A stretch of DNA of 64,000 nucleotides. Source: Amphirosellinia nigrospora. Taxonomy: Eukaryota; Ascomycota; Sordariomycetes; Xylariales; Xylariaceae. Below are positions 4,230 to 50,128 of the stretch, piece after piece. The notes below the pieces were generated by a model that saw nothing but the letters and a program-made list of their open reading frames with translations, was not told the origin of the DNA and did no database searches. The DNA is taken from contig SCHM01000002.1 in the NCBI GenBank assembly GCA_004123355.1, positions 3,410,001-3,474,000 on the forward strand. Direction: 5' to 3'. The stretch's first letter is position 1; the number at the start of each line of letters is the position of its first letter. A program made the translations under genes and the position numbers.

Positions 4230-5894
4230 CTAAGCTAACGAACCCATAGGGTCCCAAAGCGGGAGAACGATCGGCTCCTTCTTGAGGACATCCCTCACCT
4301 CCTTGCTTAAGAGTCGCGGGTCGACAACAGCCTGATACACGAACTGGTCCATCCAATCGTCGCTCATGACGAACCAGCCCTTGTCTCCCGAGTCGACGCC
4401 CCAGGAGTTCTGCACGCGCCAGCGGACTGTCTTCCCGGTCTTCTCGTCGACGTGGACGGCTGTGAGGACCATGGCGTGCGTCATGGCCGATTCGCCAACC
4501 CGGAGTCTACCGGCCTTGCCCATGGCGCCGGCAGCGTACATGTCGATATTGAATCCCAGGCCGTAATCGATCAACCCGAGGTCCATGATGCCCGCAATGC
4601 GGTCACTGAACTTGCCGACGTCGGAGCCGAAAAATATGGGTAGACCAGCTTTGAGCATGCGAACGCAGGCTTGCTTGAGCACACTCATGTCGACGTTGAT
4701 GTACGTGATACCGCGCCCTCCCACGATATTGCCAAGCCGGTCAACGGTCAGCAGTGACATAGGCTCATGTCGCGGATCATGCACTAAAGATACCATGGCC
4801 TTGATGGCGTCGTTCGATATGCGGAAGCCACTCCCCGGTACGGTAGCAGCGATATCCCGAGCGAAGTCGAGTGGTGTCTTACGGACTGTGTGCGACTGGC
4901 CATTCTTGTCGAGGAAATCCCACTCAAAGACCTCACCGCTCGCAGGCGGCGGACCCAGCGTTAGAGTGAGAACCGTGTGGATCTCGCGCATCATTCTCTC
5001 CTTTGTCGCTTTCAGAATCGCTACCGTTCTAGCGGAAGCTGGCTTGTTCTGGATGATGTTACGCAGGACGAGCGCGTACTCGCGTAACTTGCCAACAACG
5101 ACGTAGTTTATCGTGCTACTTGACATGGCATTCCAACTATCCGGATACTACAACACCCGAGTTAGTTATTGTATGGGATTTTTCGAACATGGTAGTTCCC
5201 AAAAAAGAAAGCTTCCCACTCGAGAAGCTGCCGCGAGAGGACGAGCTCAAGAATCACTTACCAGAGCCTGTGGGACAAGTCCGTATTTCTCAACCAGGTT
5301 ATAGACCATATCCCACTGACCGCCGTCACTGACCGGGTCAGCGAGAATGCGCTGCACAAGTCGGCTATCCAGATCCTCGCCAGCCGTATCAATAATGTTC
5401 TCGAGGAAGTAATTTGCCTTCTCCAGCTTATCCCAGAAGAACAGGTACGCCTGTGACAGCTCAAACGAGTCGAGGCCGTACTTCTGCATCAGCGCCACGC
5501 GGAAGACATTGGTGCTCGCGAAGAGCCAGCACCGTCCGGAAGATCTCTGGTTGGTGATCGGGGCGCCCTCGAAGGGGATGCGGATGTTGAACACCTGCTG
5601 GTCCGTGATCTTTGTCGACCGTGACATGAGGACATCCTTGGGGTTTGCGCTGCTGAGGGCCGAAAGCGCAAGCCTATTCTTGGGGTCGTCGAGGAGCTCC
5701 GCTTGCCAATCGTGCGTTAACTGTATGCCCAGCCCCTCGGGACTTCGATCCAGCTTGCCATCGAAGCCAACTTTCTCGTCCTCCACATGGACGAAATCGT
5801 CTCCTGCATCACTCTGATCAAGCTTTAGCGACCGTAGACGGTCGAGGAGAGCCTTCTCGTTCTCGCCCGTGACCTTGGACTGTTGAGCTCCCAT
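4230..5894 (-). CDS. LAP3: bleomycin hydrolase / aminopeptidase C (peptidase family C1B)
   Basis: Papain-like cysteine aminopeptidase. In this family it forms a self-compartmentalising hexamer that trims peptides and inactivates bleomycin and homocysteine thiolactone. Two exons (5894-5262 and 5147-4230) are joined in phase 0 across a 114-bp intron (GTAAGT donor, ACTAAC branch site, TAG acceptor) and give 516 residues with no frameshift. The catalytic triad is visible: Cys122 in GRCWLFAS, His435 in THAMVLTAV and Asn458 in VQNSWG. The C-terminus ends in SLA; the family has a C-terminal arm in the active site that loses its last residue by self-processing. The start at 5894 gives MGAQQSK, a good N-myristoylation signal, in strong context (A at -3, G at +4). 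An in-frame upstream ATG at 5936 would add a hydrophobic leader. Family assignment is very secure; the start is less so. Confidence 0.94.
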
Positions 5895-6863
5895 GATAAA
5901 GATGAAGACTGGCGCTAGCCACTTAAAAACTTGCATAAACTTGAAAGGGATGTCAACGCAATGAGATCTAATAAGTCGGAAGACGGTGCACAATCCCAAA
6001 GCTGATCTCCTAGTATGTCTACGAAACACGAAGCGGGAGAAGTGAGAGATGTCCGGTTTAAGAAGGTGCTGTTGTCCCTCATATGACCGGAAGCTTCACA
6101 GCAGACATATCGCCGATAACGAGGAACCGAGGAGGGGCTGCGGGCGGCGATTGGCGCAGACCACTGGCGGGATGCCAACTTTGATTGGATGAGCTCCAAA
6201 CACCTTGATGGCCATCCTTCCAAGGTCGGGAACCGAGGGGTCAGCGGGCAGCTGCCATGCCCAAGGTTCACCCAGTTCTGGTCCAGAGGAAATATCAAAC
6301 TATAAAGGCATGACTCGATAAGAGGCACTCGGAGAAGACTAATACCTAACTCACCACATAAAAGGTGCTAACATTGTAGACTATACTTATCCGGACTTGC
6401 CGGGTCCGCTCTCGTAGCACTTTTAACTTTGGTATCAGAGTCGTAGTTCTTCCGAATGCTTTTAAGGAGTGTGGCTACGAAAGGATACACGTAATGCTTC
6501 GAATTGGCGGGCCGGGCACCTCCCTAGGTCACAAGGAGGAGGTGCACAGGTATGGAAGAACTCAAACGCAGGTCTCACCTACAGAACTAGTAGGGAGTGG
6601 TCAAGCAATGGGAGAGCGAAGAGGCGAACCAAAAACATTCATGACACCAAGATTGTATTACCAACGATATACAGCGCTATCTACTTGATATGCTACCCTG
6701 AGATCACCCTCCTTTACACATCCTCTACGTCCTAAGAAATAACACATATCCGCACAGCTTCACTAGTATTGACACGCCGCGATATTGGCTCAAAGACATC
6801 CAATCCAGAACAAGTTTTATGGAGTCGATACATCATTAAGGCGACAAAGAGAAGTGGGTATGT
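5895..6863. other. intergenic between bleomycin hydrolase and HEX1
   Basis: This holds the promoter and 5' leader of bleomycin hydrolase and the 3' flank of HEX1, both on the minus strand. An in-frame upstream ATG for bleomycin hydrolase lies at 5936. No other gene is supported. Confidence 0.6.
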
Positions 6864-7520
6864 TTACAGGCTAGCACCGTGAACAACCTTGACATCGACG
6901 ACGAGCTCGTTGCCATTGTCGTTAAGGACGAGGACACGGACGCTGCCATTGCCCTTGTGGAAGGCAGACGACAGGCGAGAGTAGAGGCTCGACTGGTCAA
7001 TGACAGGCAGGTTGGTCTTGACGTCGCCAGACTCGGTCATGGCAGTGACGGAACCGTTCTGAATGTCAAGCACACGGTACTGCTTGAAAACAGGGCCGAG
7101 CATGGTCTGGACGACAACGCTGGGGGCAGGGTTGGAGACGAAGGAAGACTCCTCGTGAAGCTGCTTGCTGAACAAGTCAACACCGAGGTAACGGTGCTGG
7201 CCAGTGGCAGCCGAGGTCGAGATACGGATGACCTGGCAGGGACGACCCTGGAGCATCAAGATGTCACCCATGCGGATGTGATGGCAAGGGATAGTGACAG
7301 TGTTGGGGATGGAGCCACTGCCACTGCCACCACTGGGGCGGGGAGCAGAGGCGGCACTGGACTCGCGGATGACCTCATGGCCCTCGGGGTGGAAGATACG
7401 ATCGGCCATTTTGTGAAGACCGTGGCGGAATGAGTGATACTGTCCTATATCGCGTCACGTCAGTATAAGAAATCACTAAAGGTCATTGGCGAACTAACCG
7501 TCTTCGTCGTAATATCCCAT
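6864..7520 (-). CDS. hex1: Woronin body major protein HEX1
   Basis: HEX1 self-assembles into the crystalline core of Woronin bodies, the peroxisome-derived organelles that plug septal pores after hyphal wounding. It is an eIF5A-like fold. Two exons (7520-7499 and 7444-6864) are joined by a 54-bp intron (GTTAGT donor, CTGAC branch site, ATATAG acceptor), giving 200 residues. The start MGYYDEDG followed by QYHSFRHGLHKMADRI matches the usual HEX1/HexA N-terminus. The conserved core includes IPCHHIRMGDI, LQGRPCQVIRIST and QHRYLGVDLFSKQLHEESSF. The C-terminus is HGASL, where HEX1 proteins normally carry an SRL-type peroxisomal signal (PTS1), so the basic residue is missing. Upstream exons remain open in this frame (separate entry). 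No frameshifts are seen. Confidence 0.96.
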
Positions 7521-8729
7521 TCTAGACTTTTGGAAAGCCGAGCTGTGGCGAGGAGACTCTACAGTTTCCTCAGAGACTTTTACGTCTTTGTGATAAGAAG
7601 GAGTTGCTTTGCGGACGTCGACAGTTTCCTCAGAGAAAGAGACCTGGTCGGCGTAGTGAGGGATGTGAGTAGGGGTGTCGACGGTAGCACCGGTTACAGC
7701 GACGTGTTCTTGGAACTGAGGTCGATGGGTAGGTGTGTCAATAGTACCACCAGTCACAGCAATGTGTTCCTGGAATTGAGGCCGATAAGTAGGGGTGTCA
7801 ATAGTACCACCGGTTACGGTGAGGCGCTGTTCGATCTGAGGTCGGTGAGTAGGGGTGTCAACAGTGACGCGGATGTCCTCTCTCTTGGAAGCGGAGGGAT
7901 GAATACGAGCGCGATATTCGCGTTCGATATGGTCAATAGCAGAGTAGTGAGGCTGGTGGCGACGGTCGACCTCAATGGAAGACTCCGAGTACCTTGAAGA
8001 ACCGTACTGGGGTCGCAGAATCTTAGACTGAGGGCGAGATTCTTGGAAGACGTTTACGTTGGCAGGTCTGTAGCTGAGGAGCGAGGGTCAGATGAATTGT
8101 CTTCCAAGGAGCGATTGTTTACATGATCGACATGGACTGGGACCCATCTCGGCCAAGCGAGATTTTATGGACGCAGCTAGTGTAAAGGAAATTTGGTTGC
8201 AAGGATTCAAAACGGGGCAAGCCGTAGCGCGAACAGTGCGAAGTCATATCCAATGACCGCGTTACTATCGTCTCGGCTATTCACCACGCGTTCGTTTCCC
8301 CAGCCCCCTTGGTCTCCCCACCTGGTTTGGATTTCGCGGCTCTCAATTCATTCGAGGCTACCCGGGACACCACCGTGGTTGCAAGAAACGAATGAAAGCC
8401 ATCATACGGCAGATAATAGAGGAAGATTTGTAGACTAACCTGTGCTCCTCGTAGTACTCCTTGTGGACACCGGGACGGCGGTAACGTTCTTCTTCACGCG
8501 TGATCCGGACCTCTTCTTCGCTGTAGCGCTCCTGTCGTCGCGGCGGAAGCTGAGCAGAGGCGGAGATAGAAGAGTATTGACCTTCCCGTCCGGCTTTCTC
8601 GGGTTTGGCGGGAAGTTTGATCTCAAGCTCTTCGTGGGTCTTGGTGACCTTGGTTTCAGCCTCGGGGGCCTCTTTGTAGGTGCGAGGGAAGATGCTGAAG
8701 GGCACGGGGACGCGGGCTTCAAAGTCCAG
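6864..8729 (-). CDS. hex1: proposed N-terminally extended HEX1 isoform (non-AUG start)
   Basis: Two exons upstream of the HEX1 ATG keep the HEX1 reading frame. Exon A ends at 8440 and joins exon B (8073-7499) across a 366-bp intron (GTTAGT donor, CTGAC branch site, CAG acceptor), and exon B runs into MGYYDEDG. The frame is open from a TGA near 8806 to the HEX1 stop. The extension contains VPVPFSIFPRTYKEAP, an acidic/Arg-rich stretch (EEEVRITREEERYRR) and 20-residue tandem repeats. There is no ATG in any frame in these exons, so the first AUG on the spliced RNA would be that of HEX1. A CTG at 8729 in the context GCCAAC-CTG-G is my candidate start, giving 481 residues. The splicing and open frame are read directly; the CUG start is inference. 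The alternative is an unusually codon-like untranslated leader. Confidence 0.5.
7557..7856 (-). repeat. 60-bp (20-residue) tandem repeat in HEX1 upstream exon
   Basis: Five 60-bp units begin at 7557, 7617, 7677, 7737 and 7797, with a partial sixth from 7857. On the minus strand they encode units such as TIDTPTHRPQFQEHVAVTG, TVDTPTHIPHYADQVSFSEE and TVDVRKATPSYHKDVKVSEE. The period is exactly 60 with no frame-breaking indel, which suggests the repeats are translated. Confidence 0.9.
8074..8439 (-). other. 366-bp intron in the HEX1 5' region
   Basis: On the minus strand it starts GTTAGT and ends CTGACCCTCGCTCCTCAG, a branch site close to a CAG acceptor. It is long for this gene set, where other introns are 50-114 bp. 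It contains seven ATGs, whereas the flanking exons contain none, which independently supports its boundaries. Confidence 0.75.
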
Positions 8730-8806
8730 GTTGGCGACCTTAACGGCGCAAGGATCCTCTTCCCGACAACCTTTCGAACTCAACGAACGAAAGGAAGATC
8801 AAGAAG

Positions 8807-11800
8807 ATTCCTCTTGCTCTTCTTTCTGAAATATCTGAAAGAAAAGAAGGGAGATGAAGAAGCAGCGGTAATGATCGCTCACTTCTAGACTCGATTCTTT
8901 CTGGCAGATGCGACTGAAATAGAAGAGCGGATACGGGGTGGGTTGGGAAGGTGGTTGGGCTGGGTTGAAGAGATCAATTGGGAGAAAAGGAGGTGAAGTG
9001 GCAGAGGCGGCTATTGGCGAGCAAGAAATAGGAACCGGCGCAGCTGGCCTGGAGTGCGGGCGTCAAGGGCAGTTGTTGTGAGCAGATGGCGTGGCAGCCG
9101 GATTGCAGGGGTCGAGTGGTGCGCGCCGTGTTTACACGGGTGGGTCGGCACTGGCGGTCTATTTATCTCGGAGCCAAAGCGGCTAGACCATCGTCGCGAG
9201 TGGGGGGCACTATTGCCAATCAGAGCGGAACCCCTGAGCAGCAGCCCTGGCCGAGATGGATCCTCTTCTCCACTGTCTTACTCGCTAGTCTGGGCGTTAC
9301 CCAGCTCCCAACCACCTCTATTGACAACTTTTCCCAGCTCCCCACGAGCTCGATATCTTTTCCGCTTGGCCTGTCCGTTTACACTAGGTTGCCCGCCTGG
9401 TTCGTCGGGGAAGTTTCCCCGGTTTGATCGAATTGTCCTTGGGTAAGCTACCTGTCAATTGTGTCGCAACTAGAGTCTCTGGTTTGGTTGTTTGGTTGTT
9501 TGGTTGTAATTGTTGCGTGTAGTATAGGTACCTGAGTAGGTATCTCGAAGAACCCGGGTATCTAGATCCGTACTGTACTCCGTACTGTAACATACCAATA
9601 CGTACGTACAGGCACTAAGGTACTGTAATCGCGACTCTTTTCATCACATCTCTGCCACTGGCCCAACCTCCTCCTCCCCAATGTTCAGCTGCTACCCTCC
9701 CAGCCCTCGCATGTCGATCAGCACTTGTACTGTACATTGTATGCTAAGTATATCTGCACTAGATTATTCCTTAGGTCTCATTTGCGAGCAAACCTGTTCT
9801 GGCGCCAACGGAACGTTTCTGATTTGTCACTCGATACATCGTATAGTACAGTCGCAATCGTTTCCCTTACTGTTTTAGATAACGCTTGTAACAGCGATCA
9901 GTCGTTGTTTCATGCGATCGAACCAGAGATCCTCATCATCCCTATACTGTAGATATACGTGTGGCTGGAAACCCGTCCCCCCCCTTTCTTCTGGCAAACA
10001 AGCGCATTGAGGTGGCTGGGGACGATGCAGAACTGGTGCATAGCATCAGCATTCTGGTGACCTTTGCTGACGCCCTGCAGCCCGGCATGAAGCGTCGTCC
10101 ATGGATGCGTAACCTCGTGGTTTGCTCCCATTGGGTTGTGTACTACGACTTATGCAAGCCCAGATGTGCAACATGTAAAGACGTAAGCTGACCTGTTATT
10201 TTGAGCAGCACTGTGTCTATCTGCTACGTAGGGTTCTGTGCTCATGCAGATGCAGATGTACCGAGCTCTGTAGTATATAACCAACCAAGCCTACTGCCTT
10301 CTATGAACCCGACCACCGTCCATTGACTTCGATATAACCTCGGTTGTTCGTCAATCCTCAGCTGTTGTTTGGCCAACATCGACGGCCTCGGCCTGCTCTT
10401 AGCTCTTACCAAGCACGTTTGGGGAAAATGATCCCTGCAGTTGGAGCCGCCAGCTCCCCTGATCGTCTGTTGCTATGACGACGTTGACTGGAGACGCTAC
10501 TGCTTGCGCCCCATTGCGGAGAAATACTGTTTTGGGTATTTACCAGATTCGGTGATTCGGTACGACAAAATAAGCACCATCACATGCTGGATACGAGAGA
10601 CGGCGTTCTAATACATTGATATAGAACTAGTGGCTTAATGTCTACTGTAGGTGTCTTATCAAATATGAATAAGCAACCGTGACATGACAGAGAAGCACAT
10701 TTCATTGATACTATGTACATAGCGCAAATGGGAAACAAGCGATAATCGAGAAAACGGCTAGTACTATAACTCTCTAACGTTGCCCAGCTTAAGAGTATGT
10801 TATGTGGGTGCCTTAGCCGACACTAATTGTATCTGAGTAATGATGATGCCTTTCGGTGCTTTGGCCATGACTCTTGTTCTTACGTTGGTAGATTGAAGAA
10901 ATAGGTGTCTACAGAGAGAAGGGTTTGGACGTTACGCCTACACTAGAGAAGATTCCCATTTTCTAATCATTTGTCAATTTAAGAGCCTTCTGTAAGTTTA
11001 CATGGCATGCAATGTTATACTGACCTAAGCCTGAGGTTTCTTTTTCGTTGCCTTGATACCAGGTCTGATTTTGAGGTATGAGATTCTACTATCTAGGCAT
11101 GAATCTGAACCTAATCCAGTCATACCCTACCCTTCCTTTTGGCTGCCCTCAACCCTACATCTTAGGTTAGAATCGAAGCAGCTAAAATAAAATAGCAGAG
11201 GAAAAAGAAAGAAACAAGTTTAGTTCGGTTGATTCGATTAAAAGCATTTGATTCTAAGATAAGCGCGTAATAGCGCTCGCCATAGACAGTACTATTCTAT
11301 ATTTTTCTGTAGTGATGGGCTATATGAACTTAGGTATGGTAATACAGATTACCTAGAGCTGGGCTGAAAATTATAGGGCATTTAACTGAATTGGGTTTGG
11401 ATTCATACCTAGATAATAGAATCTCATACTTCAAAATCAAACCTAGCCTCGATACAGAAGGCGCCGGCTGGAAGAATAATAGTAGGATGTCTTCAAATAA
11501 CTGCAACAGCACTCATCATAAGAGGAGGCCTGTTTCTCTCACTCTCTAATCAACAAATCCAATATCATGATCCATATGAGCCTACCAACACCAAGTAAAT
11601 TAGCACCATTAAAGTACCCAACAACCATGAACTCCCACTCCCAATCTCGCAACCTCCCTGCAGCAGTCGCCAGCCTTGGTCATTATAAATATATAAAAAA
11701 AACCGAGAGCAGCACATGTATCATATGTACAACTTTGTTAATCTCATACAAGACTAGGCGCAAGTGTTCACCGGTATGTACCGAGTTCAACACCAGTAAT

Positions 11801-47581: not shown

Positions 47582-50128
47582 ATGAAGAACACTTTGGCCC
47601 TCGTCGCCCTGGCTGCTGGCCTCAGCCAGGTCGCCGCTACCGTAAGTTTCTGGCTGCCACAAATCTGACCATCTTTCGCTAATGAGATCAGGGCTACGGC
47701 TTCCATAATGCGCCTTCATACACTTGTCCCGACAACTCGGACAACCAATGTACACCAGACATGACCAAGGGTTTCGACTGGAGTGACCTAAACATTGGCA
47801 ACTTCGATAGCTATAAAGGTTTCACATACACTGGCTACCAGTGCTCGCAGAAGTTTGGCAAACGGGACGCACTTACTGGACGAAGCTTCCAGTCCAAGTG
47901 CATCACTGGCAAGGCTACCAATGACAAGAACAACAGCCCAAAGATTAGTTGTGATCAGAGTCAGGTCAAGAAGACTTCGATTCGCGAGTTTCAGGTCACC
48001 CCGACTTCGACTGTGATCTCGAGTTTCACTACACCATGCCCGATGGATCCAGCTGCAAGCACCGTTCTTCGTGCAAGGCTTCCGGTACTGTTGTCCAGAA
48101 CACCAGTGCGGTGGCGCTACCGACGTGACTGTCGTCTATCCCACCAGCCTGATAAGTCGCAGGATTCTTGCAACTATGGCATTCACTCCATTGGCTTTGA
48201 CTGCGAGGGACCTAAGCCTACTAAGGAGCATACTTACCCCGTGAACACGCCCACATATCCCGTCAACACTCCTGGGTACCCTGTCAGCACTCCTTCATCT
48301 TCTGCTAGCACTTCCTCGGCCGTCGTGAGCACTCCCTCATATCCGGCTGGGTCCCCTTCGTCGCCCACGAGCACCCCGTGAGCACCCCTTCGGTCCCCGC
48401 AACCAGCAGTGTGCCTTTCACCTACCCATCATATAGTGTTAGCACACCGGCTCAGAGCACGCCTGCCGAGTCTACTCCGGCTTCGTCTACACCTGCTGAA
48501 TCTACTCCGGCATCGTCCACACCCGCCGAGTCTACTCCAGCCTCATCCACGCCCGCTGAGTCCACCCCTGCTCAGTCCACACCTGCAGAGTCCACTCCCG
48601 CTCAGTCTACTCCTGCTGAATCTACTCCGGCCTCGTCCACCCCCGTCGAGTCTACTCCGGCCCAGAGCAGCACTATTGGGAGCTCGAGCACTGCTGCTGT
48701 CTCTAGCCCTTCGGTAACTCCTCCCAGCTCAGTCTCTGTCCCGGGTTCCTATCCTGTGTATACTCCAAGCACTACCAGTGTGCCTGTTGAGTCTACACCT
48801 GCTCAATCTACCCCCGCAGAGTCTACTCCTGCCTCGTCCACGCCTGCTTCGTCCACGCCTGCTTCGTCTACGCCTGCTTCGTCTACGCCGGCTGAGTCTA
48901 CTCCTGCTTCATCCACTCCTGCTCAGTCTACTCCTGTTGTGACGACCCCTATTGGTAGCAGCTCAACTGGTGCTGTGTCAACTCCCGCCGACTCCACTCC
49001 TGCTCAATCTACACCCGCCGAGTCTACTCCTGCTTCATCCACTCCTGCTCAGTCTACTCCCGTTGTGTCGACCCCTATCGGTAGCAGCTCAACTGGTGCT
49101 GTGTCAACTCCCGCCGTGACCCCGAGCTACTCTGTGACTAGCTACATCACCACTTCTACTGTTTTCAGCACTTCAGTCCACACGATCACCAGCTGCGGCC
49201 CTGACGTCCCCAACTGCCCCGCCGGCTCTACATCGGTCACCACCGTCATCATTCCCGTCTCCACCACTGTGTGCCCAGTCACTGAGACCCTCAGCCAGCC
49301 ATCGGGTACTCCTACTCCCACTCCCGTCGGGACTGGCTCTTATCCTGTTTCATCGCCAGTCGGGTCGACCCCCGTCGCCTCGTCGTCTACTTCGCCAGTC
49401 TCTCAGACCTCGAGCACTCCTTCTTACCCTGTTGAGACGCTGCCTTGCCCTGGTGTTGTCCCATCGTGCTTGAACACTTGGATGTTTAACGTTGGCTGCA
49501 AGGACAACACCGACTCTGCTTGCTACTGCCCGATAGCACCTTTGTGAACAACGTCTTTGCCTGCCTGTACGCCCACGGAGAGTCTGACGAGGTCATATCC
49601 GAGGCCGTTAGCTACTTCCAGGGTATCTGTGCACCATTTGTTCCCTCGAACCCTGGTATTGCCACCGGTGCTGAGACCATCACCAGCGTGCTGACCGTCA
49701 CTCCCACACCCGCTCCCGCTGCTTCCTACACTACCATCCAAGTCGTTGCCACCACTGTCGTCCCTTGTACCGACTCAGTCGGCCAGGTCATCCCAAGCTC
49801 TAGCAGCACTGTTATCGTCAGCACTGCCATGACAGTCCCACAGGTCATCTTCACAACCATCACTGCCACTGGTGCTGGTGCTGGATCCAGCTCCGTCGCT
49901 GTCATTCCTGGCACATACCCTGCCTTTACTCCTACCTCCACACCTGGTGGCGTTGCACCACCTTACCCGACCGGCCCTGCCATCACCACCTTCACTACCT
50001 CACCTTCAGCTGGTTTCCCTGCCACCACAGCGACCACAACCCCTGCCATCGCAACCGGCGCCGCCTCGCGGTTGGGTGCTGGCTTGGGATTTGTTGGCAT
50101 GATGGTCATGGCTGTCGCTGCCTTGTAA
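47582..50128 (+). CDS. GPI-anchored cell-wall adhesin, Mad1-like with CFEM-type domain, frameshifted in this sequence
   Basis: A predicted surface adhesin. Exon 1 (47582-47641) encodes a signal peptide, MKNTLALVALAAGLSQVAAT. A 50-bp intron (GTAAGT donor, CTAAT branch site, CAG acceptor) precedes a Cys-containing N-terminal domain (SYTCPDNSDNQCTPD, FQSKCITGK, DLEFHYTMPDGSSCKHRSSC, CNYGIHSIGFDCEG). A long Ser/Thr/Pro region follows, with many STPAES, STPASS and STPAQS units. Then comes a CFEM-like domain (PCPGVVPSCLNTW, GCKDNTDSACYCPDSTF, FACLYAHGES, FQGICAPF) and a hydrophobic tail (GAASRLGAGLGFVGMMVMAV) typical of GPI attachment. Only seven of the usual eight CFEM Cys are visible; the seventh position lacks Cys. 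This layout matches Metarhizium Mad1/Mad2-type adhesins. One-base losses occur near 48000, 48103, 48145, 48376 and 49530; the first three together restore the original frame. Confidence 0.88.
48460..49110 (+). repeat. Ser/Thr/Pro-coding minisatellite in the adhesin
   Basis: Degenerate 15-18 bp units encode ESTPAS/AQSTPA-type hexads, often written TCTACTCCTGCTGAG or a synonymous variant. Two larger near-identical blocks around GSSSTGAVSTPA (about 48930-49010 and 49065-49130) indicate a recent internal duplication. Such tracts change length readily and are likely heavily O-mannosylated stalks. Confidence 0.9.

Follow-up and report, generated by a model that had tools for sequence, protein, structure and literature searches.

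Filamentous ascomycetes plug their septa with HEX1, a crystal-forming protein. In the case of Verticillium dahliae, alternative splicing of hex1 gives rise to one form of 188 aa and another of 209 aa, and the accessible part of the relevant paper also states that HEX1 genes conserve the start MGYYD with an intron shortly after it, that the peroxisomal signal of the V. dahliae protein is SRL, and that the hypervariable N-terminal extensions predicted for HEX1 proteins are possible annotation errors (PMC7762394). For Pyricularia, HEX1 products of 439 and 417 aa appear among transcripts sharing a start codon in the portion of the source available to us (PMC8475275). This shared annotated start is presumably an AUG. 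By analogy with the Pyricularia lengths, a long upstream coding part of HEX1 may not be unique to the locus described here.

The 5' regions of Woronin body genes have also been associated with an RNA motif, hexA. According to the accessible text of its description, it has 19 examples in 10 species, is located in HexA genes, within a 5' UTR or an intron, and has a 3' tail with variability at wobble positions; its authors consider regulated splicing as its function, and at least 7 of the 19 examples are oriented opposite to the Woronin gene (PMC5640933). In our reading of that description, the tail supports the idea that HexA leaders encode protein.

N-terminal extensions with non-AUG starts are established in fungi, as documented in the accessible sections of papers on cpc-1 of Pezizomycotina, in which the codon termed NCC8 shows perfect conservation of its A at -3 and its G at +4 (PMC5487733), and on PGD of Ustilago maydis (PMC7214817). 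Our literature search, which mostly covered papers open without subscription, yielded no paper on a non-AUG start of HEX1. The organization considered below is thus one known in other genes, and the case of HEX1 did not surface in the literature searched. Here, we describe a HEX1 gene for which the best single explanation appears to be leaky non-AUG initiation that would produce a form of about 481 aa beside the 200 aa form; we assign to this explanation a probability of about 0.54.

The HEX1 gene and the open frame upstream of it

The window, i.e., the whole analysed stretch of 64,000 nt, belongs to a genome of 48.1 Mb in 11 contigs. The features of the HEX1 gene and of the region preceding it are as follows:

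6864-7444, minus strand: main HEX1 exon with eIF5A-like domains, stop TAA, terminal HGASL
7445-7498, minus strand: early HEX1 intron of 54 nt, GTTAGT...CTGAC...ATAG
7518-7520, minus strand: HEX1 AUG in the context TCTAGA ATG G (A at -3, G at +4), opening MGYYDED
7521-8073, minus strand: upstream part of exon C, in the frame of the HEX1 ATG, second part of the putative extension
8074-8439, minus strand: predicted intron 1 of 366 nt, GTTAGT...CTGAC...CTCAG, phase 2, with seven ATGs inside
8440-8729, minus strand: exon B from the candidate CTG to the exon end, first part of the putative extension
8799-8801, minus strand: in-frame TGA, upstream bound of the open frame

The two-domain eIF5A-like core of the product is recognized by Pfam (PF21485, 30 bits at a cutoff of 27.1; PF01287, 27.3 bits at a cutoff of 24.2), and a comparison with PDB returned solved Woronin body proteins with E values down to 1.3e-94. 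The protein opens with MGYYDEDG at 7520, and the intron 7498-7445 follows, which is the start and early intron characteristic of HEX1. Judged by its core and its start, the gene is a HEX1 ortholog with an unusual end: instead of the canonical C-terminal PTS1 (SRL), the protein has ASL (6864-6878, minus strand), and an aligned PDB homolog has HGSR at the position where HGAS is present here. Possibly, the ASL end is a weak peroxisomal signal or a variant of one. A search with the HEX1 core of viral and genome contig collections, assembled without fungal relatives, found no relatives. The downstream neighbour of HEX1 (4233-6095, minus strand) encodes what we take to be a bleomycin-hydrolase-type cysteine peptidase.

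Exon C spans 8073-7499 on the minus strand and contains the HEX1 ATG. An open HEX1 frame extends from 8798 through the 8440/8073 junction to the ATG at 7520, which gives 304 codons, or 281 codons when counted from CTG 8729. The splice signals of both junctions, 8440/8073 and 7499/7444, are well formed: the donor is GTTAGT in each case, a branch-like CTGAC is present, and the acceptor is CAG in one and TAG in the other. The first-pass annotation, which had described about 310 codons open across two splice junctions, was essentially right. The upstream part of the transcript as drawn is free of ATG in any frame; a transcript keeping 8247-8123 would contain an in-frame AUG.

The extension had only a self-match in its own genome and zero matches in PDB at E values up to 1. 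When the long HEX1 form was compared with Pfam, no further family was above cutoff (DUF3276 reached 13 bits at a cutoff of 23.1). The structure predicted for 8072-7521 alone from single-sequence input is uninformative (mean pLDDT of 43.8).

Coding signatures of exons C and B

The part of exon C that directly precedes the HEX1 ATG is repetitive:

7521-7868, minus strand: six 20-residue units with the core T[I/V]DTPT, the final unit having 16 residues and being ended by the HEX1 Met

The last two units are degenerate (ETVDV and ETVES). Four copies of 29 nt are spaced by 60, 60, and 60 bp, and a tandem-repeat measure gives 3.3 copies with 76% matches and 0% indels. The perfect 60-bp period described in the first-pass annotation is therefore exact with respect to spacing, whereas the copies are similar rather than identical.

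The differences between copies 1 and 2 look like those of protein-coding sequence. In the HEX1 frame, copies 1 and 2 differ by eight synonymous and two non-synonymous changes (dN/dS of 0.05), and 8 of these 10 differences are at third codon positions (binomial P of 0.003). The six pairs that can be formed from four copies have dN/dS values of 0.17, 0.40, 0.58, 0.05, 0.86, and 0.40; the values of the pairs with copy 3 (0.58, 0.86, and 0.40) weigh against the coding reading. Variable columns of copies 0-2 number 7, 2, and 12 at the first, second, and third codon positions, respectively. In the two other frames of the repeats, stops are present in three and in all four of the four copies, and 12 of 12 pair ratios are at least 1.0. 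The openness of exon C is restricted to one forward frame, as the HEX1 frame runs through 184 codons without a stop, compared with 6 and 9 stops in the remaining two forward frames.

Codon usage was scored with three training sets, comprising seven long ORFs (2,854 codons), a set with HEX1 added and a Ser/Thr/Pro-repeat ORF dropped (2,642 codons), and a set with both HEX1 and this ORF omitted. The score of exon C is +0.15 bit per codon with the Ser/Thr/Pro-repeat ORF in training, +0.02 without it, and -0.04 when HEX1 is omitted as well. Hence, the codon usage of exon C is neutral, dependent on the training set, and not clearly coding. The ORF in question (48176-49544, plus strand) is a tandem-repeat ORF rich in Ser, Thr, and Pro, with periods of 15, 30, 60, and 126 bp among those listed, and its predicted product resembles a cell-wall or mucin-type protein.

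Exon B, by comparison, has a frame-specific codon usage. Past the CTG, the HEX1 frame of its 96 codons reaches +0.23 to +0.27 bit per codon with the three training sets (+22 to +26 bits in total), and its five other frames score below zero with each set. The corresponding values are 0.11 to 0.19 bit per codon for HEX1's own exon and -0.15 to -0.28 bit per codon (-3.5 to -6.4 bits) for the 23 codons preceding the CTG. When 1,000 open 96-codon frames are drawn at random from the window, real exons of other genes included, 7.4% equal or beat exon B. The cumulative codon score has its minimum at 8765 (-9.03) and is nearly as low at 8750 and 8744; the coding signal begins near 8765-8729, with a resolution of about a dozen codons. 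The openness of exon B alone carries little weight, because a further forward frame and one reverse frame are stop-free too; the remaining forward frame has four stops.

The first-pass interpretation as a whole is partly supported. The translation of this frame in fusion with HEX1, which it proposed, is supported by evidence internal to the locus, namely, the substitutions between repeat copies in exon C, the frame-specific codon usage of exon B, the openness of exon C in a single forward frame, and the well-formed introns. Taken together, the extension, or minimally its exon C part, is probably translated, and we hold this with good confidence.

Absence of ATG and the candidate CTG start

On the minus strand, no ATG starts in 9190-8406 or in 8123-7521. 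The seven ATGs of intron 1 are at 8405, 8402, 8351, 8247, 8147, 8133, and 8124, and the nearest one further upstream is at 9191 (ATG GTC TAG). These counts agree with the first-pass annotation, which had described both upstream exons as ATG-free, the ATG-free tract as continuing to about 9187, and the intron as containing seven ATGs. The absence is unusual by base composition: the spliced leader of 1,301 nt has no ATG against a mean of 7.5 in dinucleotide shuffles, none of 5,000 of which had zero. The two ATG-to-ATG gaps of the leader (786 and 604 nt) rank second and third among 1,321 gaps of both strands, when gaps that reach into the AT-rich island (15,900-38,300) are excluded. Ten control stretches of this genome, each of 10 kb (100 kb in total), contain 3,309 gaps, one of which reaches 604 nt (2,131 nt, 13% GC); none of the 1,962 gaps with a GC content of at least 45% does so (the longest has 593).

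The AT-rich island at about 16000-38000 (22 kb) has a GC content of 10-21% per 2 kb and ATG-free runs of up to 4,999 nt on both strands, and has presumably been worn down by RIP-type mutation. An AT-rich patch of similar kind is present in one of the ten control stretches (L012).

According to the first-pass annotation, the lack of AUG lets ribosomes scan to the HEX1 AUG. Although the absence is real, its weight as evidence had been overstated. The 281-codon extension is ATG-free in 29% of the shuffles that hold protein sequence and codon usage (P of 0.29) and in 8.4% of codon-order permutations; the 401 nt above 9191, which are beyond the leader, are ATG-free too (P of 0.014); and the Ser/Thr/Pro-repeat ORF contains an ATG-free run of 1,306 nt, longer than that of the HEX1 leader. 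Much of the absence therefore goes back to the composition of a repetitive protein that contains no Met. The region 9130-8730 alone is ATG-free as well, which is mildly unusual (P of 0.04).

The candidate start codon and the elements preceding it are the following:

8727-8729, minus strand: candidate non-AUG start CTG in the context GCCAAC CTG GA
8730-9187, minus strand: ATG-free 5' region with ATAAATA at 9166 and a CT-rich tract at about 9000-8900
8852-8809 and 8807-8758, minus strand: two adjacent predicted hairpins, ending 28 nt ahead of the CTG

From the TGA to the end of exon B, the HEX1 frame contains 12 near-cognate codons, and the combination of A at -3 and G at +4 is found at two of them, CTG 8729 and AAG 8651. 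AAG is generally a poorer start codon. When the search is limited to CTG, GTG, TTG, and ACG, the 1,254 nt of leader examined contain three codons in this context, counted over all frames together, and CTG 8729 is the sole one in the HEX1 frame. By a rough estimate from base frequencies, the chance of such a codon in the stretch is about 1 in 16. The minimum of the codon score lies 12 codons upstream of the CTG, and the score is flat to 8744, so that a near-cognate codon is located roughly at the onset of the coding signal. CTG 8729 is thus supported by its context, earlier called near-ideal, and by its approximate coincidence with this onset. The evidence for CTG 8729 as the start codon is suggestive.

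The ATAAATA element and the CT-rich tract constitute a plausible core promoter, which suggests that transcription starts inside the ATG-free tract. A bacterial-type promoter scan was set aside as irrelevant for a fungus. Folding was applied to two stretches as single sequences. The fold of 8900-8640 has a z score of -2.6, with 3 of 200 shuffles equally stable, and that of the region near the intron-1 acceptor is ordinary (z of -0.8), both values being uncorrected for the number of stretches; the hairpin coordinates were counted by hand from the dot-bracket output. A search of 6000-10000 against Rfam gave three matches, all far below gathering scores. At 8836-8880 (minus strand), a possible small 5'-leader intron of 45 nt (GTGAGC ... 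TTTCTTTCAG) can be noted, in which the branch site is not clear and the acceptor tract of which doubles as the left arm of the hairpin 8852-8809.

Alternative origins of the extension and comparison with known systems

The main rival explanation is that an ordinary AUG, located either inside intron 1 or in a distal first exon, serves as the start for the whole extension or a part of it. We consider it possible, if on balance unlikely. In the intron-1 variant, the strongest one, which was overlooked in the first-pass annotation, transcripts starting within intron 1 or retaining it would use ATG 8247 or 8133 and be spliced to exon C by means of a short intron:

8074-8122, minus strand: alternative intron of 49 nt within intron 1, GTAAAC...CTGAC...CTCAG, in phase

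This intron is well formed, and ATG 8247 and ATG 8133 would add 41 and three codons, respectively, ahead of exon C. Alternative splicing of hex1 5' regions is, moreover, documented in the accessible parts of the Verticillium and Pyricularia papers (PMC7762394; PMC8475275). On the other hand, the 41 codons from ATG 8247 score -0.24 bit per codon, a value equalled or exceeded by 74% of random open 41-codon frames, and ATG 8133 has T at -3. This route also omits exon B, and thus leaves the frame-specific codon usage of that exon unexplained.

In the distal variant, an AUG in a far first exon would be spliced onto exon B. Within about 3.8 kb, 10 combinations of an ATG exon and a donor are in the right phase, and the acceptor that they would use, the CAG at 8694, is preceded by a pyrimidine-rich tract and is the one YAG acceptor in the exon B region 8798-8560. 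These counts refer to single upstream exons, YAG acceptors, and consensus-like donors, and omit eight non-YAG AG sites in 8798-8661. Against this variant, introns of 879-3,747 nt would be required, and splicing at 8694 would skip 8729-8695. Both routes may exist.

The extension could also be a relic of an N-terminal domain that once started with an AUG, recently lost this start, and is now a long untranslated leader. The start codon is indeed gone from the frame, but 304 codons are free of stops, the splice sites are intact, and a neutral relic would have no need of a spliced leader with zero ATG, all of which make such an origin improbable. AUG-free leaders suit strongly expressed genes, and a long leader of the usual non-coding type, in which AUGs are avoided so that HEX1 is translated efficiently, would be in line with the mild ATG depletion of 9130-8730 and with the neutral codon usage of exon C, but it would leave to chance the third-position bias among the repeat copies, the frame-specific codon usage of exon B, the indel-free 60-bp periodicity, and a frame open in phase across two introns, and is highly improbable.

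According to the preferred explanation, leaky non-AUG initiation, two HEX1 proteins would be produced from one mRNA. Most of the scanning ribosomes would pass the AUG-less leader, reach AUG 7520, and synthesize the 200 aa crystal-forming HEX1, and a minority would initiate earlier, at a near-cognate codon that is most probably CUG 8729, to synthesize the form of about 481 aa. The N-terminal tail of the long form, with its six repeat units, is probably flexible. As a guess, the minor form might co-assemble with the short HEX1 and tether the crystal or limit it. Such a minor long form would add a layer of control to the assembly of the crystal or to its tethering, and could account for the N-terminal diversity of predicted HEX1 proteins. 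We regard as rather doubtful a more far-reaching version, in which HEX1 is a dual-start gene in this lineage, the AUG-less leader with stable hairpins just ahead of the CUG sets the ratio of long to short form, and the hexA RNA motif represents a conserved trace of the arrangement. If it were true, the HEX1 extensions suspected as annotation errors would be a real isoform, controlled by the choice of start codon, with a role in shaping or tethering Woronin bodies.

As far as the accessible text of the respective paper allows comparison, the HEX1 locus resembles cpc-1/cpcA of Neurospora and other Pezizomycotina in the long open in-frame extension upstream of the main AUG and in the A at -3 and G at +4 of near-cognate start codons, a candidate one in the case of HEX1 (PMC5487733). 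The cpc-1 frame is under purifying selection, of which the HEX1 frame has signs in repeat copies 1 and 2 and in the codon usage of exon B. It differs in that cpc-1 has two AUG uORFs and starvation control, while the HEX1 leader as drawn is AUG-less (PMC5487733). The closest CPC1-type bZIP gene of the same genome is at C5:5770955-5774101 (L014) and has an open frame of 429 aa. It was rejected as a control, as this frame holds an in-frame ATG (IMASSSSS), which makes the comparison unclean.

In the case of PGD of U. maydis, a peroxisome-linked protein exists in a long and a short form owing to a non-AUG start, as is proposed here for HEX1, according to the part of the source available; the extension of PGD, however, bears a PTS2 signal and starts at AGG-AUU (PMC7214817). 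In HEX1, by contrast, the C-terminus would be common to both forms, and the tail consists of repeats in which no signal was recognized. The likeness to the hexA RNA motif, compared by its description in the accessible text, consists in a hairpin and, behind it, a tail of protein-coding appearance; in that motif a splice-site-like stretch is on the right arm, whereas here it is the left arm of the hairpin 8852-8809 that bears the pyrimidine tract and CAG (PMC5640933). With the spliced hex1 genes of Verticillium (PMC7762394) and Pyricularia (PMC8475275), as described in the accessible portions of both papers, the HEX1 gene of the window would share the production of more than one HEX1 form per gene. 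The reported Verticillium forms differ by 21 aa and two of the Pyricularia forms by 22 aa, while those proposed here would differ by about 281 aa, through the choice of start codon.
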